The notes under the pieces: model-generated
Databases searched by the model: none
Seen by the model: the letters and a program-made list of their open reading frames with translations, nothing else
What the model was told of the DNA's origin: nothing
Origin: Cyanobacteria bacterium GSL.Bin1
Lineage (GTDB): Bacteria; Cyanobacteriota; Cyanobacteriia; Cyanobacteriales; Rubidibacteraceae
DNA length: 33,600 nt
Reading direction: 5' to 3'
NCBI GenBank assembly: GCA_009909085.1
Contig: JAAANX010000145.1
Location: 1-33,600, forward strand
Shown: positions 4,531-25,146 of the stretch, in pieces
How positions within the stretch are numbered: position 1 is the stretch's first letter
Layout: each line of letters starts with the position of its first letter
Translations under genes and position numbers: made by a program

Positions 4531-5616
4531 GTGACAACACAAAGACTTTCAACTCATAAAACCAAGACTCGCTGGAAAAAGACAGTTCAGCAACTCCGTT
4601 CATTAGGATTAATGGGGTTACTCTTCCTTCTCCTCACTGCTTCTGTTATTCTCAGTTTAGCCCTCGGATCAGTGGAGATTCCAGTACAAGAAGTAGTCAA
4701 GATTCTGTTTGCTGGGGAGACAACCCAAGCAACTTGGCAAGAGATTATTTTCCAATTTCGCTTACCGAAAGCCCTCACTGGGGCATTTGCTGGTGGAGGA
4801 TTAGCGGTCAGTGGTTTCCTGATTCAAACGCTATTCCGTAATCCTTTGGCGGGTCCTTCTCTGCTGGGAATTAATGCGGGGGCGAGTCTTGGGGTTGCTG
4901 TGGTTGTCTTAACTCTAGGAACAACTGGTTCTTCTACTCTCTTAGCGGGATTAGGCTTTACTGAAGACATTGGGATTGTCATGGCAGCGAGTTTAGGCGC
5001 AGCAGCAGCAATGGGACTGGTGATGATTGTTGCGCAACGAGTGCGGAGTAACCTCGCGCTGCTGATTTTTGGCTTGATGTTTGGTTACACTACAACGGCT
5101 TTAGTGACCATTCTCTTGCACTTTAGCTTAGTGGAACGATTACAGGCTTATCTCAGTTGGACATTTGGCAGTTTTAGCGGTGTCACTTGGACGCAGATGC
5201 AAGTTTTTATTCCTGTGCTGTTACTGGGTTTAGTCATTGCCCAAAGTCTAGCCAGTCCGCTTAATCTCTTGTTATTAGGAGAAGAACACGCCCTTAGTCT
5301 GGGGTTAGCGGTGCGTCCCACTCGCGCTTTAATTATTATTAGTGTTGCGCTTTTGGCAGGAACTGTCACTGCGTTTTGTGGCCCGATCGCGTTTTTAGGC
5401 ATTGCCGTTCCCCATTTGTGTCGCAGTTTGTTTCAAACCTTAGATCACCAGTTATTAATTCCAGCAAATGCCCTGATGGGAGCGACTTTAGCCCTCTTTG
5501 CCGATTCGATCGCGCAAATGCCAGGTCAGGATGTTGTCTTACCCTTAAATGCTGTTACTGCCTTACTGGGCGCACCGATCATTACTTGGTTAATTTTGCG
5601 ACGACAACGACGTTGA
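4531..5616 (+). CDS. ABC transporter permease, FecCD/BtuC family
   Basis: 361 aa with about ten hydrophobic segments after a basic N-terminus. Family signatures are visible: GGGLAVSGFLIQTLFRNPLAGPS near residue 90, LGINAGASLG, and late GPIAFLGIAVPHLCR, which forms the coupling region to the ATPase. GTG at 4531 is the likely start, 5 bp after the phosphoesterase stop. It would form the inner-membrane channel fed by the upstream lipoprotein. No ATP-binding subunit (BtuD/FecE) is encoded in the window. It must come from elsewhere, or the operon has lost its 3' part. A 24-bp piece of cysS directly follows the stop codon, which supports a rearrangement at this point. Confidence 0.88.
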   Translation: MTTQRLSTHKTKTRWKKTVQQLRSLGLMGLLFLLLTASVILSLALGSVEIPVQEVVKILFAGETTQATWQEIIFQFRLPKALTGAFAGGGLAVSGFLIQTLFRNPLAGPSLLGINAGASLGVAVVVLTLGTTGSSTLLAGLGFTEDIGIVMAASLGAAAAMGLVMIVAQRVRSNLALLIFGLMFGYTTTALVTILLHFSLVERLQAYLSWTFGSFSGVTWTQMQVFIPVLLLGLVIAQSLASPLNLLLLGEEHALSLGLAVRPTRALIIISVALLAGTVTAFCGPIAFLGIAVPHLCRSLFQTLDHQLLIPANALMGATLALFADSIAQMPGQDVVLPLNAVTALLGAPIITWLILRRQRR

Positions 5617-8796: not shown

Positions 8797-8941
8797 CAAA
8801 GAAGGGTGGAAAATCGGTTTCAAGTTAACCCATCAAGAACTTGCTGAGGCGCATTGGGAGTTCCCGCGTGACGGTCACTAGCCTTTTGAGAAGGCTAAAG
8901 CAACAAGGAGTAATTGAGCGTTTTGGTCGGAATTCTATTGT
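8797..8941 (+). pseudogene. C-terminal HTH fragment of a Crp/NtcA-family regulator, frameshifted
   Basis: One frame reads FKLTHQELAEA up to about 8850. The next frame continues IGSSRVTVTSLLRRLKQQGV, then IERFGRNSIV. Together they form the Crp-type winged-helix DNA-recognition helix. An extra base at about 8849-8851 breaks the frame, and the effector domain is absent. The fragment ends where the 3' end of cysS begins on the other strand. Confidence 0.75.
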
Positions 8942-10395
8942 CGGTGCCAGTGGGCTTCTCCGTTCCGCTGATCCACTACGACCACCCCTACCCTTGCTAG
9001 CTGATCGCGGATTTGATCAGCAGTGGCAAAGTCTCGGGCTTGTCGGGCAACTTGACGTTCCTGAATTAGGCGGCTTACCGTCACGTCATCTAGAGGCTGA
9101 TTAGTCTGCATATTATCCTCTGGTGAAGTCTCTAGACCCAGAACTTGGGCTAGATGCACTAGAGTCTGCCACTGCTGACGGAGTTGAGTTGGATTCACTT
9201 CGGTGTGACCGGCATGGATCAGACGATTGCTCTCCCTCTGGAGAGTCTTAGCTAGATCAAACATCACCGCCAGCGCTACGGGAGTATTCAGATCATCATT
9301 CATTGCAGTTTGGAACTGTTCCACTTTCGTCGCATCCAGATTGGGCTGAACAGTAGTGGACCAGCCTAGTTGAGAGCCGTAGTGGTAGCCAAAGTTAAGC
9401 CCAGCGCGGAGGGTCTGCCAACTGCTGGAAGCTGCTGTCATCGCATCTTTGGAAAAATCAAGGGACTTACGGTAGTGCCCTTGCAGTATAAACAGTCGCA
9501 CTGCCATTGGGTCTATCGACTGTGGGAACTCAGCCCACTGTCCTGTCAGCAGGTTGCGGATGGTAGTAAAATTACCTAGGGATTTCGACATTTTTTCCCC
9601 GTTCACCGTCACCATGCCATTGTGTAGCCAGTAGTGGGCTAGGGGCTTGCCGTTGACAGCTTGAGACTGGGCAATCTCATTTTCGTGGTGGGGAAACACG
9701 AGATCGCCTCCCCCACCGTGAATATCGATAGTCGTCCCCAGTCGCGCCCGAATCATCGCCGAACATTCGATGTGCCAGCCCGGTCGCCCCTGTCCCCAGG
9801 GCGAGTCCCAAGCTGGTTCATCGGGTTTAGCCCCCTTCCACAGGGTAAAGTCAATTGGGTCGGCTTTGGCGGTAGCAGCTAGATCGCGATTGCTGGTTCC
9901 AGTGTGTATCGTTTCCAATGAGCGACCCGAGAGCTTGCCATAATCTTCAAACTGCCTCACTCGATAATACACATCACCACCCGTAGCATAGGCATAGCCT
10001 TTAGCTTCGAGCTTACTAATTAGCTCGTGAATTGCCCCGATATGCTCGGTCACTCGGGGATATTCGTCGGCATCAAGCACATTAAGATGACGCATATCCT
10101 GAAAATAACGCTGAATGTAGCGCTCAGATATCGCTGCCATAGTAGTTCCTTCAGTCTTGGCTCGGTTGAGAATTTTGTCATCAATATCAGTAAAGTTCTG
10201 CACATAATGTACGCTGTAGCCCAGCCACTGCAAGTACCGTCGCAGCACATCCCACCCTACATAAGACCGAGCATGACCCAGATGGCAATCATCATAAACC
10301 GTCACTCCGCAACAGTACATGGTCACTTGACCACGAGTAATAGGGAGAAAGGGTTGCTGACGCTTGGTGAGGGTATTGTAGAGATTGAGAGACAT
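8935..10395 (-). CDS. cysS: Cysteinyl-tRNA synthetase, Zur-box-controlled copy
   Basis: 486 aa from ATG 10395; a TTG six bases upstream is a weaker start. Class I signatures are HLGH near residue 38 and KMSKS near 270. Zinc ligands expected from the family are present: the Cys in MYCCGVTVYD (residue 29), the Cys in GWHIECSAM, and the His and Glu in VFPHHENEIAQ. It charges tRNA-Cys in the cytoplasm. A perfect Zur-like palindrome lies 11 bp upstream of the start, so expression is probably derepressed when zinc is low. Zur-controlled second copies of CysRS and other zinc enzymes are known from COG0523 gene neighbourhoods. Whether this is the only cysS of the genome cannot be seen here. Confidence 0.92.
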   Translation of the reverse strand: MSLNLYNTLTKRQQPFLPITRGQVTMYCCGVTVYDDCHLGHARSYVGWDVLRRYLQWLGYSVHYVQNFTDIDDKILNRAKTEGTTMAAISERYIQRYFQDMRHLNVLDADEYPRVTEHIGAIHELISKLEAKGYAYATGGDVYYRVRQFEDYGKLSGRSLETIHTGTSNRDLAATAKADPIDFTLWKGAKPDEPAWDSPWGQGRPGWHIECSAMIRARLGTTIDIHGGGGDLVFPHHENEIAQSQAVNGKPLAHYWLHNGMVTVNGEKMSKSLGNFTTIRNLLTGQWAEFPQSIDPMAVRLFILQGHYRKSLDFSKDAMTAASSSWQTLRAGLNFGYHYGSQLGWSTTVQPNLDATKVEQFQTAMNDDLNTPVALAVMFDLAKTLQRESNRLIHAGHTEVNPTQLRQQWQTLVHLAQVLGLETSPEDNMQTNQPLDDVTVSRLIQERQVARQARDFATADQIRDQLARVGVVVVDQRNGEAHWHRQ

Positions 10396-10405
10396 GAACA
10401 AAACT

Positions 10406-17598: not shown

Positions 17599-17626
17599 TT
17601 CTTGCTTGCAAACACACAATCTAACC

Positions 17627-18664
17627 ATGAATAGCACAACCAAAGAACCACTCATTCCCAAGCGGGGATTACCTGTAACAATCATCACTGGGTTTTTGGG
17701 GAGTGGGAAAACGACACTCCTCAACCACATTTTAAGCAACAATCAGGACTTAAAAGTTGCCGTTCTTGTTAATGAATTTGGCGACATTAACATTGATAGT
17801 CACCTTCTCATTTCAATTGATGAAGATATGGTTGAACTGAGTAATGGTTGTATTTGTTGTACGATTAATGATGGGTTAGTGGAAGCAGTATATCGGGTAT
17901 TAGAACGCAGCGATCGCGTTGATTATCTGATCATTGAAACCACTGGAGTTGCTGATCCCTTACCGATTATTCTGACATTTTTAGGAACAGAATTGCGCGA
18001 CTTAACTCGTCTTGATTCTGTTATCACTCTAGTGGATGCAGATGCTTTTACCCCAGAACATTTTGATAGTGAAGCAGCATTTAAGCAAATCACTTATGCT
18101 GATATTACAATTTTGAATAAAACCGATTTAGCGTCGTCTGAGCACATTCAAACCCTAGAAAGTTATATCTGTAGCGTCAAAGAAGGCGCAAGAATTCTTC
18201 ATAGCCAAAATGCTGAAGTTCCTCTGCCATTTATTTTAGATGTTGGTTATAACGATCCAAACAATTATGGACATTTAGTTGAAGAAGAGATCGAAGAAAC
18301 TGAACATGAACATCATCAGAAGCATCAGCACGAACATCATCATCACCATTCTTCCCACTTAGATAATGATGGGTTTGTCTCTATTTCTTTTACCAGCGAT
18401 CGCCCTTTTTATGTGGAAAAACTAGAAGAATTTTTACAAGAGAACTTATCTAAAGATGTCTTTCGGGCGAAAGGGATTCTGTGGTTTCACGAAAGCGACC
18501 TCTGTCATATTTTTCAGTTAAGTGGCCCTCGCTTTGACATACAAGGTGAACCATGGCGCACTACACCGAAAAATGAGCTTATTTTCATTGGGCGTAATCT
18601 GAATGCTGATGAAATTCGACAACACTTAAGTGAATGTTTGGTTTCATCATTGGTTTTACAGTAA
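17627..18664 (+). CDS. COG0523 (CobW-family) GTPase, candidate zinc metallochaperone
   Basis: 345 aa from ATG 17627; the frame is open to a TTG 21 bases upstream. The P-loop GFLGSGKTTLLNH is at about residue 20, NEFGDINIDSHLL follows, and the diagnostic CxCC motif is NGCICCTIN. The guanine-specificity motif is NKTDL. A linker rich in His and Glu (EHEHHQKHQHEHHHHHSSH, residues about 225-245) precedes the C-terminal CobW domain. Members under Zur control (ZagA/ZigA type) are thought to load zinc into client enzymes when zinc is short. The box upstream and the hisI gene 16 bp downstream fit that role. A cobalt or B12 function (true CobW) is the alternative. Confidence 0.9.
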   Translation: MNSTTKEPLIPKRGLPVTIITGFLGSGKTTLLNHILSNNQDLKVAVLVNEFGDINIDSHLLISIDEDMVELSNGCICCTINDGLVEAVYRVLERSDRVDYLIIETTGVADPLPIILTFLGTELRDLTRLDSVITLVDADAFTPEHFDSEAAFKQITYADITILNKTDLASSEHIQTLESYICSVKEGARILHSQNAEVPLPFILDVGYNDPNNYGHLVEEEIEETEHEHHQKHQHEHHHHHSSHLDNDGFVSISFTSDRPFYVEKLEEFLQENLSKDVFRAKGILWFHESDLCHIFQLSGPRFDIQGEPWRTTPKNELIFIGRNLNADEIRQHLSECLVSSLVLQ

Positions 18665-18680
18665 CTGAGCGACAAGGAAT

Positions 18681-19031
18681 ATGAATCAAGATTTACTCTG
18701 GATCGAGCAATTAAAGTTTAATGAACAGGGATTAATTCCCGCGATCGCGCAAGACGACCAAGATCAAGCTGTTTTAATGATGGCATGGATGAACCGAGAA
18801 TCCATCCAACGGACTCTCGAAACAGGAGAAGCGCACTACTGGAGTCGCTCTCGTTCAGAACTGTGGCATAAAGGAGCAACTTCAGGTCAAATCCAAAAAG
18901 TGAAAAAACTTTTCTATGATTGTGATAGTGACACGATTTTACTTAAAGTTCACCAACTGCAAAACGTAGCCTGTCACACAGGAGCAAGGAGTTGTTTCTT
19001 TAATCCAGTCAAAATCCCTGCCCTGATTTAA
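18681..19031 (+). CDS. hisI: Phosphoribosyl-AMP cyclohydrolase, stand-alone copy
   Basis: 116 aa containing only the HisI domain, without the HisE pyrophosphatase part. Motifs are [20 protein letters not shown], the metal-binding DCDSD, and [10 protein letters not shown], whose cysteines bind zinc. The enzyme opens the purine ring of phosphoribosyl-AMP in histidine synthesis. It is 16 bp after the COG0523 GTPase and so shares its Zur-like operator. It may be a client of that chaperone or a spare zinc enzyme for starvation. A second, damaged hisI lies at 24.2-25.1 kb. Confidence 0.9.
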
Positions 19032-19036
19032 ATCAA

Positions 19037-19072
19037 ATGTCGTTGTTGAAGTTAACTAAACGCGATCGCGAT
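19037..19072 (+). repeat. Copy of the 3' end of the 62-aa gene
   Basis: 36 bases match 21350-21385 with 2 differences and encode the same NVVVEVN-stop ending before an ACGCGATCGCGAT tail. This places a tail remnant of the 62-aa gene directly behind hisI, before the IS630 element. Confidence 0.75.
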
Positions 19073-19259
19073 TCTCATCTTGCCGCTAAAGTTTAATAAA
19101 CAAGAATTATTGTTTTTTAATTGTTGCCATTAGCGGTATCAAGAATTTTAAGAGCGGTTTGATGATCGAGCTGATCAAATACGCGATCGCGCTCACTAAT
19201 ACCATTTATCAAAAGTAACTGGAGAGTTAAAATAGAAAAGACGAACTCGAATTAAGGAG

Positions 19260-20375
19260 ATGTCAGGTCGCCCTCAGATTGAAATCAAAGAATCCGTCAA
19301 GGAGCTAAGAACATTACTCAAGCAACAAAAAACGGCTTTGAATCACGCCAAAGTACAAGCTCTTTATCTCTTGAAAATTGAAGCGACAGAAACCGTCAGA
19401 TATCTAGCGGTAATGATGGGACGCTCGGAATCAACAATTCACTACTGGTTACAATTATATCGGTTAGGGGGATTAGACAAACTGTTAGAAGAACATCCGA
19501 AAACCGGGCGACCAAAGAAGCTAAAGCTTGAAACTGTAGCTAAACTTCAACAAGAATTATCCCAACCCGAAGGATTTAATAGTTATGAAGAAATTCGGCA
19601 TTGGCTTTTGGCGTGTCAAGAGATCAGACTTAGTTATCCCACAGTTCATCGTCTGGTCAGGTATGAATTAGCAGGAAAATTAAAAGTGCCTCGTCCTCAA
19701 CATGAATACCAACAACCGGGAGTAGTGGAAGTCTTTCGACAACATTTCCCGACTCGAATTAGAGGAATGATGGCTGAAATTAGAAAGCGATGGGGAGCAG
19801 AAGTTCCCATTACTTATTGGTGTGCGGAATGCACTGCCGCTTTCCAGCCTGAATTGTATTCAGGCTGGGTCGGCAGTCAGGACGAGACCCGATTGGGTTT
19901 TAGAACTAACCTGGGTCGCCAAATTACTCGTCAAGGAATTAAGCCTCAACAAATTTTACAGTGGCATTATGACTATTATTATCTGTATGGATTAGTTGCT
20001 CCTCTAACCGGGCAGAGTTTTTTCTATGAGTTTTCTCATTTCAATGCTCAATGCTTAGAAATTTTCTTAGAAAAGTTTGCTCAAACTTATCCTGAGGGAG
20101 TCCATATTATCCAATTAGATAATGCCCCAGCCCATCGGGCTAAAACCTTGACCTTTCCCGAGAATATTATCCTACTATTTCAACCTCCTTATTGTCCGGA
20201 ATTAAATCCCATTGAAAGAGTTTGGCAACATCTCAAGAAAGACTTAAAAAATCTCAGCTTTCTTCACTTGGATGAATTGAGGGAGCGTGTGACTAATCTT
20301 TTAGATCATTTTTCAGAAGAAGTCATTCATTCTTTAACGGGTTGGAACTATCTCATTGAAGCTTTATCTCTCTAG
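19260..20375 (+). CDS. IS630-family transposase carrying an in-frame palindromic insertion
   Basis: 371 aa. The N-terminal helix-turn-helix region contains YLAVMMGRSESTIHYWLQLY. The DDE catalytic residues are D in SQDETRLGF (about residue 209), D in IQLDNAPAH (about 286) and E in LNPIERVW (about 322). Just before the first D an 18-residue stretch (AECTAAFQPELYSGWVGS) interrupts the usual Tyr-Trp-Cys-Gln-Asp-Glu order. Its DNA is a near-perfect palindrome at 19833-19877. The frame stays open through it. Whether the enzyme still works is unknown, because the insertion lies next to the active site. Confidence 0.9.
   Translation: MSGRPQIEIKESVKELRTLLKQQKTALNHAKVQALYLLKIEATETVRYLAVMMGRSESTIHYWLQLYRLGGLDKLLEEHPKTGRPKKLKLETVAKLQQELSQPEGFNSYEEIRHWLLACQEIRLSYPTVHRLVRYELAGKLKVPRPQHEYQQPGVVEVFRQHFPTRIRGMMAEIRKRWGAEVPITYWCAECTAAFQPELYSGWVGSQDETRLGFRTNLGRQITRQGIKPQQILQWHYDYYYLYGLVAPLTGQSFFYEFSHFNAQCLEIFLEKFAQTYPEGVHIIQLDNAPAHRAKTLTFPENIILLFQPPYCPELNPIERVWQHLKKDLKNLSFLHLDELRERVTNLLDHFSEEVIHSLTGWNYLIEALSL
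19825..19878. repeat. Palindromic mini-element inserted in frame in the transposase
   Basis: Outer arms ACTGCCG / CGGCAGT (19833-19839, 19871-19877) and inner arms CCAGCCTGAAT / ATTCAGGCTGG (19844-19854, 19858-19868) surround a 3-base loop. The insertion is about 54 bp (18 codons). Its core GAATTNNATTC and tail GTCGNCNGTCA are shared with the element at 24782-24830. Confidence 0.8.
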
Positions 20376-20470
20376 TTACTTTTGAGAATTGGTATAAGAT
20401 AACGCGTTGCACTCGGTCTGACGACCTACGCAAAACTAAAAGGCCCGATCAGGGTCAGACTCTCACTCAG

Positions 20471-20632
20471 TCACGGAAGAAGGCGCGATTGCATCAGTTT
20501 TTTACATCCAGAGGGACGAGGATTGCTCGATAGATTAGAGATTGCTACTTTAATTCGCTCCATTTCTTGAGTAGGAACTGATTTTAGATCCTTTTTTACC
20601 CGTCGATCAAACTCTACGCTGTAGTCACCCAC
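20471..20632 (-). pseudogene. RelE-type toxin, C-terminally truncated
   Basis: From GTG 20632, overlapping the antitoxin stop, the minus strand reads GDYSVEFDRRVKKDLKSVPT and then NLSSNPRPSGCKKL before a stop after 53 codons. RelE toxins are normally 85-95 residues; the part carrying the catalytic C-terminal residues is gone. The toxin is probably inactive. Confidence 0.75.
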
Positions 20633-20903
20633 ACTCAACTTCTAATTCCGCAAAGAACTCATCAAAGCTAACCCGCTCTTGTTCTGAGTCAGTCATGCGC
20701 TCTTCAGCTTCTTGCAAATCAAGGTTATCTTCCGCTTGTTGTAAAAGTTTCAGAAAAAGCTCGTAGTCTCTAGCTGGGATCATATACACTGGCTCCTTAT
20801 TTAGTCGACTAATAACGATATGCTCGCTTGTCCCAGCAACATGATTGAGTGTGTCAGCAAAACGATCTTTTACTTCTTCAGAAGATAAGGAACGCATTAT
20901 CAA
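20625..20903 (-). CDS. Phd/YefM-family antitoxin
   Basis: 92 aa. The N-terminal Phd/YefM fold is recognisable (RSLSSEEVKDRFADTLNHV, then SEHIVISRLNKEPVYMIPARDYE), with an acidic C-terminal toxin-binding tail. The stop codon overlaps the start of a RelE-type toxin frame, the usual type II arrangement. Because the toxin is truncated, this antitoxin is effectively orphaned. Such proteins repress their own promoter, which would lie just above 20903. Confidence 0.85.
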   Translation of the reverse strand: MIMRSLSSEEVKDRFADTLNHVAGTSEHIVISRLNKEPVYMIPARDYELFLKLLQQAEDNLDLQEAEERMTDSEQERVSFDEFFAELEVECG

Positions 20904-21052
20904 AACCTTGTACTTTATGCACTTAGCGTACCTTAATTAATCCCGATTTAGCAGTCATTTTACTTAGCTAATGGGCGATCACATTGTGCTTGCTCTGAAA
21001 ACCTACGCAGAACAAAAGTTTCGATCATATTCAAAAGATGATGTACTTTGAT

Positions 21053-21073
21053 TATTATTAATAGCTAATAATA
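21053..21073. repeat. AT-rich perfect inverted repeat
   Basis: TATTATTA and TAATAATA surround ATAGC. It lies in the 280-bp stretch between the antitoxin and the 62-aa gene, which otherwise holds only a Zur-like box and HIP1-like sequence. Confidence 0.45.
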
Positions 21074-21137
21074 CAGTGCAGCGGACGGAAAGCGCGATCG
21101 CCTCTGCGCTCATCTACGTTATATTTCTGTGTTATTT

Positions 21138-21152
21138 TAATAATGATTATCA
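21138..21152 (+). promoter_or_regulatory. Zur-like operator of the 62-aa gene and thrS
   Basis: TAATAATGATTATCA, 31 bp upstream of the ATG at 21184. It matches the perfect palindrome except for the first pair. Confidence 0.8.
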
Positions 21153-21183
21153 TTCTTAGTCAATAGTTAGGGAGATTAATCAG

Positions 21184-21372
21184 ATGACAACCATACAGCA
21201 CTATGCAACGAACTACATCGAAAACGCCAAGGTTACTCTAATTGCCCCAACGCAAACAATTGAGGCAAAGTCAGTAGAATATTGTATTTCTAGCGGTTAT
21301 GTGAAAGTAGTCACTCAAGATGAACGCACATTGATTACACACATTAGCAATGTCGTCGTTGAAGTTAACTGA
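21184..21372 (+). CDS. Small 62-aa protein preceded by a Zur-like box
   Basis: ATG 21184 follows a GGGAGAT ribosome site and a Zur-like box. The protein is mostly short beta-prone segments (VTLIAPTQTIEAKSVEYCIS, then YVKVVTQDERTLITHISNVV). There is one cysteine, no signal peptide and no known metal motif. The layout loosely resembles a small beta-barrel, but I do not assign a family. It ends 61 bp before thrS and should be co-transcribed. A copy of its last codons follows hisI at 19.04 kb, which suggests the gene once lay directly behind hisI. Confidence 0.6.
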   Translation: MTTIQHYATNYIENAKVTLIAPTQTIEAKSVEYCISSGYVKVVTQDERTLITHISNVVVEVN

Positions 21373-21433
21373 ACGCGATCGCGATACCCAAGTCAGCGTA
21401 AATATTCAGAATTTAAATACAGTAATAATTCTC

Positions 21434-23287
21434 ATGGTCAGTCAAATTCACCCCTCATCCGTCCAAGAGCCAATTCCTCAAAGCGATCCGCAAACCCTGT
21501 TACGCATTCGTCATACTTGCGCCCATATTATGGCAATGGCAGTGCAAAATCTGTTTCCAGAAACCAAAGTAACTATCGGACCTTGGACAGAAACAGGATT
21601 CTATTACGACTTTGATCGAACTCAACCGTTCACCCCAGAGGACTTGAGTCAAATTGAAGCAGAAATGCGACGCATCATTAAAGCTAATTTACCCATTGTT
21701 CGTGAAGAAGTTTCTCGGGAAGAGATGCGGACTGAAATTGAAGAACTCGGAGAACCCTACAAATTAGAAATTCTGGAAAGTATTCCCACAGACGAACCCG
21801 TCACACGGTACTATATCGGTTTTCCAGACTCTATTCCTGTAGCAGAAGGAGAACCCTCTCTCTTTCAGTCAGTTCCTCCTCAAGCAAAACCCAAAAATCA
21901 CGATTACTGGTGGGATTTATGTGAAGGACCTCATGTGACCTTGACTGGAGAAATTAATCCCAATGCCTTTGCCTTGGAAGCCATAGCTGGCGCTTATTGG
22001 CGCGGTGACGAAAATAATCCTCAGTTGCAACGGATTTATGGAACAGCATGGGAAACACCAGAACAGTTACAAGTCTATTTAACCCAAAAAGAAGAGGCGA
22101 AAAAACGAGATCATCGTAAAATTGGGCAAGCCCTAGATTTATTCAGTATTCAAGAAGATGCTGGTGGGGGTCTTGTGTTCTGGCATCCTAAAGGCTCAAG
22201 AATGCGTTTACTCATTGAAGACTATTGGCGTAAAGCTCATTTAGATGGAGGATATGAGTTACTTTACACGCCTCATCTGGCTAGTTTGGGTTTATGGAAA
22301 ACATCTGGACACGCTGATTTCTATCAGGACAATATGTTCAAGCCGATGGAAATTGAAGAGAAGCAATATCAAATTAAACCCATGAACTGTCCCTTTCATG
22401 TGCTGACCTATCAAACTCAGCAACGTTCTTATCGAGAATTGCCGATACGATGGGCGGAGTTGGGAACTGTGTATCGTTATGAGCGATCGGGTGTCTTACA
22501 TGGTTTAATGCGGGTACGTGGCTTCACACAAGATGATGCTCACATTTTCTGCTTACCCCAACAAGTGACTGATGAAATTTTAGGCGTGCTGAATCTCACA
22601 GAGCAAATTTTATCAGCCTTTGGCTTTACTCAATATGAAATTAACCTTTCCACCCGACCCAGTAAATCAGTGGGAACAGATGAAGGGTGGGAGTTAGCCA
22701 CGAATTCTCTTGTTCAGGCGTTAGAAACAAAAGGTTGGGATTATGTTTTAGACGAAGGGGGCGGGGCTTTTTATGGTCCGAAAATTGATTTGAAGATTAA
22801 AGATGCCATTGGTCGGCTTTGGCAATGCTCCACAATTCAAGTTGATTTTAACTTACCAGAACGGTTTAATCTGAGCTACATGGCAGATGATGGATCGCGC
22901 CAACGCCCAATTATGATTCATCGCGCTATTTTTGGCTCATTAGAACGATTTTTCGGAGTGTTAGTGGAAAATTATGCTGGAGATTTCCCCTTGTGGTTAT
23001 CACCAACACAAGTGCGATTACTGCCTGTAAGTGATGCTCAACGGGATTATGCTGTTGAGGTTGCTCAACAGTTGAAACAAGCAGGATGGAGAGTTGAAGT
23101 TGATGCTAGCGGCGATCGACTGGGGAAACAAATTCGGAGTGCTGAAATGGAAAAGATTCCAGTGGTAGCAGTGATCGGTAAGCGTGAGGTAGAAAGTGGA
23201 ATGTTAAGTGTCCGCACTCGCAAAGAAGGAGAGTTAGGAACTCTTTCTGTCGCTGAACTGGTGGAAAAAATGAGCCAGCCAATTTAG
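21434..23287 (+). CDS. thrS: Threonyl-tRNA synthetase, Zur-linked copy
   Basis: 617 aa from ATG 21434; the longer frame from 21350 overlaps the 62-aa gene and is unlikely. The N-terminal TGS domain of enterobacterial ThrRS is absent, as is usual in cyanobacteria. The editing-domain motifs are kept: HTCAH near residue 31 and CEGPH near 184. Class II catalytic motifs follow, with the zinc ligands Cys in KPMNCPFHV, His in SGVLHGLMRVRGFTQDDAH and His in IMIHRAIFGSLERF. The anticodon-binding domain is C-terminal. In Anabaena a Zur-repressed second ThrRS (T2) takes over when zinc loss inactivates T1. This gene is a good candidate for the same role, although here the editing residues look intact. 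Confidence 0.93.
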   Translation: MVSQIHPSSVQEPIPQSDPQTLLRIRHTCAHIMAMAVQNLFPETKVTIGPWTETGFYYDFDRTQPFTPEDLSQIEAEMRRIIKANLPIVREEVSREEMRTEIEELGEPYKLEILESIPTDEPVTRYYIGFPDSIPVAEGEPSLFQSVPPQAKPKNHDYWWDLCEGPHVTLTGEINPNAFALEAIAGAYWRGDENNPQLQRIYGTAWETPEQLQVYLTQKEEAKKRDHRKIGQALDLFSIQEDAGGGLVFWHPKGSRMRLLIEDYWRKAHLDGGYELLYTPHLASLGLWKTSGHADFYQDNMFKPMEIEEKQYQIKPMNCPFHVLTYQTQQRSYRELPIRWAELGTVYRYERSGVLHGLMRVRGFTQDDAHIFCLPQQVTDEILGVLNLTEQILSAFGFTQYEINLSTRPSKSVGTDEGWELATNSLVQALETKGWDYVLDEGGGAFYGPKIDLKIKDAIGRLWQCSTIQVDFNLPERFNLSYMADDGSRQRPIMIHRAIFGSLERFFGVLVENYAGDFPLWLSPTQVRLLPVSDAQRDYAVEVAQQLKQAGWRVEVDASGDRLGKQIRSAEMEKIPVVAVIGKREVESGMLSVRTRKEGELGTLSVAELVEKMSQPI

Positions 23288-23320
23288 TTAAATTGCAGAA
23301 TTAGGCATTTAAACTTAAAA

Positions 23321-23335
23321 TGATAATCGTTATCG
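23321..23335 (+). promoter_or_regulatory. Zur-like operator of folE
   Basis: TGATAATCGTTATCG, 72 bp upstream of the folE ATG and 33 bp after thrS. It differs from the perfect palindrome at two positions. Confidence 0.75.
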
Positions 23336-23407
23336 TTTTATTTTGTGAAACGTGACCCACTCGATTCCATGAATCGTTGTCAATACCATTATTTTTAAGA
23401 AGACTTT

Positions 23408-24049
23408 ATGACTTTATCGACCCAAGAATCCCCATCTCCTGCTTTACCTTCTCTAGAAACCAAAGCCCAGCCAGTGGTCTCTGAAGAAGAGATGCGCCAG
23501 GCTGTCCGAACCTTATTAATCGGGTTAGGAGAAGACCCCGATCGCGAAGGATTACTCGATACTCCGAAACGAGTGGTTAAAGCTCTTCAATTCCTAACCT
23601 CTGGCTATCATCAATCCATAGACGACTTACTCAATGGGGCGGTTTTTCACGAAGATACCGATGAGATGGTCTTGGTTCGAGATATTGATTTATTTAGTTC
23701 TTGTGAACACCATATTCTCCCTATTATTGGTCGCGTCCATGTTGCTTATATGCCCAACGGAAAAGTAATCGGATTATCGAAGTTAGCACGGATTTGTGAA
23801 ATGTATGGGCGACGCTTGCAAGTCCAAGAACGGTTAACGGCTCAAATTGCTGACGCGATTGAGGGATTACTCCAACCCAAAGGAGTAGCAGTTGTCGTAG
23901 AAGCAACCCATATGTGTATGGTTATGCGAGGAGTGCAAAAGCCAGGCTCTTGGACGGTTTCTAGTGCCATGCGTGGAGTATTTGCCGACGATCCGAAAAC
24001 GCGACAAGAATTTATGAGTCTGATTCAACACCCCCAAAACTTCCGATAA
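23408..24049 (+). CDS. folE: GTP cyclohydrolase I
   Basis: 213 aa. The catalytic zinc ligands are present: Cys and His in [10 protein letters not shown] (about residues 99-102) and Cys in [15 protein letters not shown] (about 170). The substrate-binding stretch [12 protein letters not shown] lies between them. The enzyme turns GTP into dihydroneopterin triphosphate for folate or pterin synthesis. It is a zinc enzyme of type I, not the metal-promiscuous FolE2, so its Zur-like operator suggests an extra copy made under zinc limitation and perhaps supplied by the COG0523 chaperone. A fragment of a second, diverged folE is at 25.8 kb. Confidence 0.93.
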
Positions 24050-24078
24050 TTTTAATCCTCTCTTTTTTCGCGTGCTGA

Positions 24079-24120
24079 TAGGTAGAGACTGCTTACACTC
24101 TATGTCTTTACCTATTTTTC
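24079..24120 (+). terminator. Rho-independent terminator after folE
   Basis: TAGGTAGAGAC pairs with GTCTTTACCTA (10 of 11) and is followed by a TTTTT run. It should separate folE from the hisI paralogue. Confidence 0.7.
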
Positions 24121-24264
24121 CTTCCTCTCTTTCACCGTTAATTGTAAACACACAAATTGGAGGACGCGCTTTCCTCTCCCGCAGGAGTCAGAGAGCGCGA
24201 AGAAAATATGAATCCCCTATTTACCGCCCGCACTTCCATAGAACAGGTTGAGTCTGGTTTCTTA

Positions 24265-24613
24265 CAAAAAGTCGCCGCACGCGCCCACGCGCTTTAGACG
24301 TGGGAGATAAGGCGAGTGAGTTGAGGGCTTCAATAGCCCGAAGACGAACCAACTCAAGCAGTTGGTGTTATGATTAACTCATTAACAAGAGGCGCGATCA
24401 ACCTCTCTAAAAAACGTAAGCACCCTAACCGGTGTACCAGTAAAAACAAGACAATTTAAGTTTCTAAACTGTAGGGTGGGGCGCACCCAAACCGTATAAT
24501 CAACGCTTTTGGAGAGAATTCCCTCTGGAGCTAAAAGAACTCGTTTCTGGAAGCTGTAAGGTGTCTCGATGAATTAAGAATCCAACGCGCTTTTAGTCGT
24601 TGGAGCGTCAATT
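24265..24613 (+). mobile_element. Non-autonomous MITE derived from a tnpB (IS200/IS605-type) element
   Basis: 349 bp with no long ORF. The left end has AGTCGCCGCA and hairpin CCCACG...CGTGGG (24284-24304), then a GAGTTGAGGGCTTCAATAGC segment closely matching the left end of the full element at 12568. The right end has hairpin CCAACG...CGTTGG (24582-24603) followed by AGCGTCAA. Stem bases differ from the full element in a compensatory way. The inner part retains GGTGGGGCGCACCC and GAAGCTGTAAGG-type sequence like the tnpB 3' end. It interrupts hisI. Confidence 0.82.
24460..24613 (+). ncRNA. Possible orphan omega-RNA-like segment in the MITE
   Basis: The stretch corresponds in position and partly in sequence to the 3' tnpB/right-end region of the full element. 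It might be a guide-RNA scaffold usable by TnpB in trans. There is no direct evidence of expression. Confidence 0.3.
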
Positions 24614-24781
24614 GCTCCCAAATTTGATACCAATGGTTTGATTCCAGTAGTTACCACCGATGTCAACACAGGAGAATTGCTGATGCACGCCTATATGAAC
24701 GAAGAGGCGTTAATTAAAACCATTGAAACGGGAGAAGCTCATTATTATAGCCGTAGTCGTCAGCAGTTATGGCATAAAGGT

Positions 24782-24830
24782 AAGGACGCGACCCCCGAAT
24801 TCGATTCGGGGGCTTGTGTCGTCCGTCAAT
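24782..24830. repeat. Palindromic mini-element inserted in frame in hisI
   Basis: Outer arms GGACG / CGTCC (24784-24788, 24820-24824) and inner arms CCCCCGAAT / ATTCGGGGG (24792-24800, 24804-24812) surround a 3-base loop. It adds about 16 residues between LWHKG and SSGLVQK, where the intact HisI at 18681 has only ATSGQIQK. Confidence 0.8.
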
Positions 24831-25146
24831 CTAGTGGATTGGTGCAAAAACTACACCAGTTAGCGATTGATGACGACCAAGATTGTCTGTGGATGCAGGT
24901 TAAAGTCGCTGCTTCAGGAGCTAGTTGTCACGTAGGTTATCGTTCTTGTTTTTATCGCTGTATTCCTACGGGAAAAAGTGCTATTGATTCCCAGCAACCA
25001 ATTCAGTTAGTGTTCACGGAAGAGGAGAAAACATTTGACCCGAAAACAGTTTATGGTGATGCGCCCAACCCGACACAATTGTAAATTTAGCGAGTCGCTT
25101 TAATTAACAAAAAATCTAGTCTGCCCAATTTGCACTGGTAAAGCTA

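Follow-up and report, generated by a model that had tools for sequence, protein, structure and literature searches.

The window analysed here, 33,600 nucleotides of Cyanobacteria bacterium GSL.Bin1, contains a hisI gene whose product is interrupted between the invariant residues K47-G48 and S66-G67, splitting the strongly conserved KGxxSG motif. A preliminary description had placed about 16 extra residues at 24782-24830, between LWHKG and SSGLVQK. A run of 16 residues (KDATPEFDSGACVVRQ) is indeed present there and the starting coordinate stands, but the trailing CAAT and the last residue, Q, are native to the host, so that the insert itself amounts to 15 amino acids or 45 bp and ends at 24826. 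These 45 bp were missing from all of the best 80 related loci in the genome collection, none of which carried an insert at the same place, and the empty site AAAGGT/CAATCTAGTGG was letter-perfect in 13 of the 80, e.g. in Okeania, Moorena, Symploca and Hydrocoleum. The nested palindrome with a 3-base loop was borne out, with perfect inner arms of 9 bp (24792-24800 and 24804-24812) enclosed by an outer stem (GGACG/CGTCC); the core GAATTCGATTC and tail GTCGTCCGTCA described for it were both found, although the final CA of the tail is host sequence. Folded alone as DNA, the hisI hairpin was moderately unusual (z -2.88, with 1 of 200 shuffles equally stable). The coordinates of these features, and of those in the IS630-family transposase discussed below, are collected in Table 1.

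Table 1. Positions of the two palindromic elements, their stems and their host genes within the window
Feature	Position	Strand	Basis
Host gene hisI (phosphoribosyl-AMP cyclohydrolase)	24638-25084	+	Open frame across insert; Pfam PF01502 in two stretches; 80 related loci; PDB 1zps
Type-A element in hisI, 45 bp	24782-24826	- (orientation of models R2/R3)	Empty sites; model and profile matches
hisI inner hairpin, CCCCCGAAT-TCG-ATTCGGGGG	24792-24812	.	Inverted repeat I4, 100% complementary, 3 nt between arms
hisI outer stem, arm 1 (GGACG)	24784-24788	.	Pairs with 24820-24824; sequence and DNA fold centroid
hisI outer stem, arm 2 (CGTCC)	24820-24824	.	Sequence and DNA fold centroid
GT adjoining the hisI insert	24780-24781	.	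Repeated at 24825-24826; filled versus empty site
Host IS630-family transposase ORF, type-B element in frame	19260-20375	+	ORF; PF13358 DDE_3; plasmid relatives
Type-B element in IS630, 54 bp	19824-19877	+	Empty relative L358; R1 match; DNA fold
Type-B outer stem in IS630	19833-19839/19871-19877
Type-B inner stem in IS630	19844-19854/19858-19868

Searches of the source genome (4.82 Mb, 210 contigs) and of its cyanobacterial relatives placed the hisI hairpin within a larger family. A DNA search with the hisI region returned a 90%-identical copy (contig C124, 504-552) lying in the TrpE-TrpG linker, in frame and in the same frame as the hisI copy, with the peptide KDASSESNSEACVVR, and a search with the IS630 element returned about 20 relatives. 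These copies share a plan of an outer stem, a 4-nt/2-nt internal loop (CAAG or CTTT opposite AA or GT) and an inner stem that usually ends in GAAT-NNN-ATTC, within which four types were distinguished: type A (hisI and trpEG, 45 bp), type B (IS630, 54 bp), type C, which starts with CGCGGAATGCG and is mostly 54 bp, and type D, which starts with CAACGGTCA and is mostly 48 bp. The core GAATNNNATTC occurred 187 times, compared with 48 occurrences of the reversed control pattern. A covariance model of type B (R1, 14 sequences, alignment A1) found 20 places in the same genome at E < 1e-7, the 14 training copies among them, and 53 matches at E up to 1, the additional ones being weaker relatives or reverse strands of the same palindromes. 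Hits to hisI-like subtypes, found with a model of 32 sequences (R3, alignment A3), added at least 23 strong places, giving at least 43 distinct strong places in the genome.

Beyond the source genome, the DNA search with the hisI copy against 60 relatives returned the own genome and four others, the latter with short matches of 19-24 bases. With a covariance model of type A together with types C and D (R2, six sequences), 9 of 20 genomes gave matches at E up to 0.1; these were strong in the own genome, four others of the genus, G006 of the same family and G018 of another family, and weak in G012 and G017. Of 195 genomes of the order, 18 had R3 matches at E up to 1e-4, the source genome among them, mostly from two families: six from its own family and eight from one other, along with G018, G056, G089 and G124. 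As this survey scored 27 candidates per genome, its copy numbers are lower bounds (at least 26 in G026, and at least one each in G056, G089 and G124). The eight genomes from the other family include Stanieria sp. NIES-3757 and S. cyanosphaera PCC 7437; in both, the single copy that was checked is plasmid-borne, lying within an annotated IS1 transposase in the former and within an annotated UvrD-helicase-domain gene in the latter. Type B also occurs in G001 (L281). The preliminary description had proposed a covariance-model search to see whether more than its two loci would be returned, and dozens were. Taken by itself the hisI hairpin could be a chance loop expansion, palindromic by accident, as its modest folding score would allow; the trpEG copy, the 43 or more places and the excess of the core sequence exclude this, and with dozens of related copies at unrelated sites, their stems covarying, the explanation retains a negligible probability.

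Several further observations were made in the course of these searches. An exact 20-base type-A end beside CTGAC (L125; G026:C5:47979-47998) is apparently a deletion form that lacks the inner hairpin. Different hairpins are nested in clusters at L034, L035, L039 and L014-L020, e.g. type B inside a larger palindrome ending in CTTTGACCGTTGGTC. The arms of the hisI inner hairpin recur near-identically, with three bases between them, in another repeat context at L126, L128 and L129 (G040 and G031), possibly as IS605-type ends. Membership of a known Rfam family was rejected, the window at gathering cut-off giving a cobalamin riboswitch alone (RF00174, 5650-5795, 58.6 bits), which directly follows a gene (4531-5616) that we take, by its looks, to encode a BtuC/FecCD-type permease.

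The preliminary description had further held that the hisI copy is related to the one in the IS630-family transposase. Insertion was evident in the latter too, with plasmid relatives H1 and H6 being 54 bp shorter across the same span and the empty relative L358 reading TACTGGTGT/CAAGATGAAACC; a paralogue search within the same genome returned, besides the query itself, one 92-aa piece and two weak matches. Folded as DNA, the IS630 hairpin had a z of -4.93, with 0 of 200 shuffles as stable. Both elements were covered by models, hisI by R3 (24776-24836) and IS630 by R1 (19822-19883), but each was among the training rows of the model concerned; R2 and R3 were trained on the hisI and trpE copies and R1 on the IS630 copy, and their scores for those copies are therefore circular. 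A non-circular check for type A came from a sequence profile from which the hisI and trpE rows had been left out. Its best match in the window was the hisI element (E 6.5e-6), followed, own reverse strand aside, by a match at E 0.45, and it also matched the trpEG element (E 7.3e-6), which groups the hisI copy clearly with types C and D. The IS630 element was not recovered by this profile in the window (3.3 bits, E 2.3), and a close relationship between the two copies was accordingly rejected. By these comparisons, the hisI and IS630 copies are different subtypes with a common architecture, so that the proposed relationship stands at the level of architecture but not of close sequence kinship, and the similarity quoted for their tails is partly host sequence at the insertion point. 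Type B is joined to the other types by that architecture and by the mini-hairpin GTGCGGAATGCAC, which is also found in a type-C copy (L004).

Across the family, the stems are kept by compensatory changes, and structure is conserved over sequence, as had been suggested from the first two copies. For the 32 copies of A3, hand-picked from R1 and R2 matches with near-identical repeats and weak hits left out, 92.4% of cells pair, and 14 of 17 pairs show changes on both sides. There were 89 cells with changes on both sides compared with 19.7 in shuffled alignments, with none of 500 shuffles reaching the score, and shifting the partner by 1-3 columns reduced pairing to 26-53%. Type B alone (A1, 14 copies) had such changes in 7 of 18 pairs, with 23 cells against 7.9 shuffled, and its further pair types were not above shuffles (385/500). 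A third alignment of 60 later matches (A4), which was fitted to the model and hence leans towards structure, had 177 cells against 50.3, with further pair types not clearly above shuffles (99/500).

Orthologues fixed the exact insert length in six genes, in all of which it was 45, 48 or 54 bp, in frame and stop-free. In addition to hisI, the inserts were of 54 bp in the IS630 transposase (relative to L357 and L358), an ISAs1 transposase (relative to L359 and L360) and a GH38 alpha-mannosidase (relative to seven relatives), and of 48 bp in a histidine kinase and a phosphatase-like gene. The kinase was compared with five same-genus orthologues (L239-L243), and four more distant orthologues were also aligned, one of which (L246) shows a minor extension of its own close by; the phosphatase-like gene (L203), an assignment that is our own reading as there was no Pfam match at 1e-5, was compared with one relative (L244), with flanks verbatim as TTATCGAGTC/AGTGGTGTCG. 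A TnpB-like gene of G001 (L281) has 18 extra residues where its paralogue in L182 runs through, and the copy found in an IS1 transposase (L009), at 53 bp, shifts the frame. No clean empty site was found for trpEG, the one relative aligned (L238) having a different linker. Other open reading frames bearing copies belong to the Pfam families LysM-M23 peptidase, HypF, HisKA_3 kinase, NmrA/CIA30, photolyase-related DPRP, BT1 transporter, MscS-cNMP, amidase, RNase H, ABC1 kinase and an intein-bearing epimerase, among others; these hosts were assigned from open reading frame and Pfam match, and in some (L185 and L190) the copy is located within a linker or close to the start. No Pfam match at 1e-5 was obtained for five of the 30 scanned proteins (L203, L198, L302, L182 and L330).

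Element lengths were measured by a text search for ends among 90 elements, of which 51 D and 18 C copies, intergenic ones included, were measurable. They were 48 bp in 43 of the 51 D copies and 54 bp in 17 of the 18 C copies; the eight D and one C off-class values, with lengths ranging from 21 to 55 and several not divisible by three, may partly be a fault of the rule. Copies occur in both orientations and several frames, and predicted element-encoded peptides include KDATPEFDSGACVVR and the LTNGHPQAPE type. An excess of stop-free frames was rejected, as 2.64 of six frames were open in the 90 elements compared with 2.29 in neighbouring DNA and 2.79 in shuffled elements. Elements with different arms are apparently present at the same site of TnpB genes in two species (L007 and L008; L165 and L174), before VRNLVKNH / IKGMVRNH, which would reflect either one old insertion with diverged stems or repeated insertion. 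Another copy (L191, G003:C17), within the reading frame of an intein-bearing nucleotide-sugar epimerase, apparently lies inside the intein, one mobile element within another. The earlier step from two insertions to a mobile family that tolerates coding DNA is thus upheld as to the family and its in-frame occurrence, although the copies are far more numerous than two and mobility is read from the comparison of filled and empty sites.

It had also been proposed to check in a structure model of HisI whether the loop is exposed. The AlphaFold model of the protein was poor (mean pLDDT 67.6, pTM 0.60) but matched PDB 1zps (TM 0.53/0.62), indicating a HisI fold, and insert residues 49-56 and 58-65, between strands 43-46 and 70-78, had pLDDT below 50, from which an exposed and flexible loop is plausible. 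The insert-bearing gene may be dispensable, given a second hisI in the window (18681-19031). Both hisI genes fall within a region (17606-25084) presumably also encoding a CobW-like GTPase, a threonyl-tRNA synthetase and folE, which, with cysS at 8935-10401, resembles a zinc-starvation (Zur) paralogue cluster; the gene names were read from the translations, with tests of the hisI genes.

How such an element might move is suggested by its flanks. In the R3 orientation, positions -5 to -1 of 61 D copies were T44 T57 G52 A58 C52. The flank and guide set comprised 94 copies (60 of 60 and 34 of 48, the 14 omitted being repeats, type A and divergent forms), from which five near-duplicate flanks were dropped, and in the remainder TGAC lies on the left of 39 of 57 D and 15 of 32 C copies. 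Read on the element strand, the empty sites carry TTGAC in hisI (the GT with the following CAA, on the minus strand) and CTGAC in L203, which makes at least part of the motif target rather than element; the target is weaker at the histidine kinase (CGAC) and GH38 (TCAC) sites, and the type-B copies inspected have (G/T)GT, not TGAC, as left flank. A GTCA directly 5' of the hairpin, able to pair with TGAC of the flank or right end, is present in 41 of 57 D and 23 of 32 C copies, while the type-A hisI copy has neither this guide nor the mini-hairpin. Target-guide pairs were in small excess over shuffles (196 vs 188.9, 9/2000; 101 vs 88.7, 1/2000), an excess also to be expected of a flank that forms part of the element.

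A possible explanation is that the element travels in single-stranded, folded form, with an HUH/Y1 transposase of the IS200/IS605 type cutting and joining it in trans. Pairing with the GTCA 5' of the hairpin (mini-hairpin TGACC-AAC-GGTCA) would select the target (T)TGAC, the second cut site would be the TGAC at the 3' end of the element, pairing with the same GTCA motif in the outer stem, and a copy landing in a tolerant loop would add a peptide of 15-18 aa that the host protein can survive. This last step follows from usual lengths that are divisible by three and some frames being stop-free. There was no Y1 gene with copies on both sides among 36 Y1 loci (six from the own genome and 30 from six others) searched with R3 and R1. 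R3 matched strongly at just two places: one match lies about 100 bp from a two-piece tnpA in G003 (L275/L295), the other about 515 bp from a fragment in the own genome (L219). Strong R1 matches were at L214 and L281, in both of which the copy is inside a TnpB-like gene, and at L289. In G026, which had the most R3 matches among those listed, a single weak Y1 match was found, surrounded by other repeats, and two resident IS605-type ends (L214 and L215), compared by eye, had no similarity to the family. Given these neighbourhoods, the lack of a guide in type A and the type-B flanks, single-strand hairpin transposition is held as the likeliest route only.

Of the other routes considered, spread as a strict REP/RPE-type element by a RAYT (TnpA-REP) or an extinct relative would fit the size, bulged hairpin, dispersion and in-frame intragenic copies, in the respects described for such elements (PMC3733652), and ORFs of 175-200 aa with weak Y1 matches, judged RAYT-like, are present in G001, G026 and G161. 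This is nevertheless considered unlikely, as the consensus has no GTAG or CGTC tag, the RAYT-like genes read (L272 and L296) sit among other repeats, and the sites here are AC/TGAC compared with the CT or CA cut by TnpA-REP proteins (PMC8266576). The repeats around L272 in G026 (GCGAGCATCTTGCTCGC) and L296 in G001 (GGTTGGGTTGAGG) probably mark separate REP systems. The short direct repeats that flank inserts (GT in hisI, GTC in L203) would suit a MITE-like element that a double-strand transposase mobilises, duplicating 2-3 bp of target (AC/GAC), but they are equally readable as target plus element end, and no inverted repeat was seen other than the hairpin, the outer arms of which differ from copy to copy; we know of no MITE-like family with an AC duplication, and this route is rated as rather improbable. 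Removal or neglect of the element at the RNA level, by RNA mobility, splicing or ribosome hopping, would leave the proteins without the peptide; the hairpin could form in RNA too, and such removal would spare the very conserved motif that the hisI insert breaks up. It would, however, require neither the frame nor the lack of stops seen in all six orthologue-verified inserts, and type-B copies in three unrelated genes (IS630, L005 and L006) share one frame, AECTAAFQ, with the copies in TnpB genes using others, so that this possibility appears very remote. A mobile family of in-frame hairpins therefore remains the preferred reading, and on the comparison of sites it almost certainly exists; that a Y1-type mechanism moves it falls a little short of an even chance. 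Taken as a whole, the combination of such a family with IS200/IS605-type single-strand movement by Y1 and TGAC pairing is given a probability of roughly 0.6. More tentatively, the elements could be parasites tuned to coding DNA in cyanobacteria, with lengths divisible by three and guide-picked (T)TGAC sites, that generate in-frame insertions of 15-18 aa in housekeeping proteins across families.

Comparable elements are known from several systems. The small dispersed repeats of Nostoc described by Elhai in 2008 are reportedly tiny mobile cyanobacterial repeats, and are alike in this respect. IS608 inserts 3' of TTAC and reads this target by means of a guide lying 5' of its end hairpin (PMC5934647); the insertion proposed here, 3' of a short target via a guide 5' of the hairpin, would be similar, although IS608 is a complete transposon that carries its own TnpA and two end hairpins. 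In Haloquadratum walsbyi, PATEs are very small, transposase-free and related to IS605 ends, and small mobile repeats often lie in IS605 elements (PMC3119063); the present family is likewise tiny and transposase-free, with types B and C in TnpB genes, but has a single central hairpin, unlike PATEs. REP and REPIN sequences with their RAYTs are similarly dispersed bulged hairpins, some of them intragenic, whereas here GTAG at the hairpin foot was absent in alignments A1 and A3, no RAYT was flanked by copies at the 36 Y1 loci, and the sites are AC/TGAC. GTAG-12, -15 and -16 repeats are reported from Anabaena, Nostoc and Cyanothece (PMC3733652) and, compared by description, differ from the family in their GTAG tag.

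The closest parallel is with the Rickettsia palindromic elements, which are described as short palindromes in frame in many unrelated proteins, with no known dedicated transposase, and in-frame palindromic insertions are recorded for Rickettsia, Opitutus terrae, Thauera and others (PMC3733652). The titles and abstract openings found, from a search with subscription journals mostly outside it, included none on such insertions in cyanobacterial proteins. Compared by description, the present family is alike in its in-frame palindromes inside unrelated genes (six here, relative to empty relatives), and differs in being cyanobacterial, mostly of fixed length (45, 48 or 54 bp) and without the CGTC tag; the 32-copy consensus has no conserved CGTC outside the stem, the CGTC of type A lying within the outer stem. 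Here, in-frame palindromes occur in several cyanobacterial lineages, in identifiable genes and with orthologous empty sites, which makes movement, peptide production or tolerance, and the seeding of protein loops directly testable, and the family accounts for unusual insertions that might have been taken for ordinary protein evolution. The hairpin family is real and very probably mobile, a cyanobacterial one of the RPE/REP kind but without the GTAG and CGTC tags.
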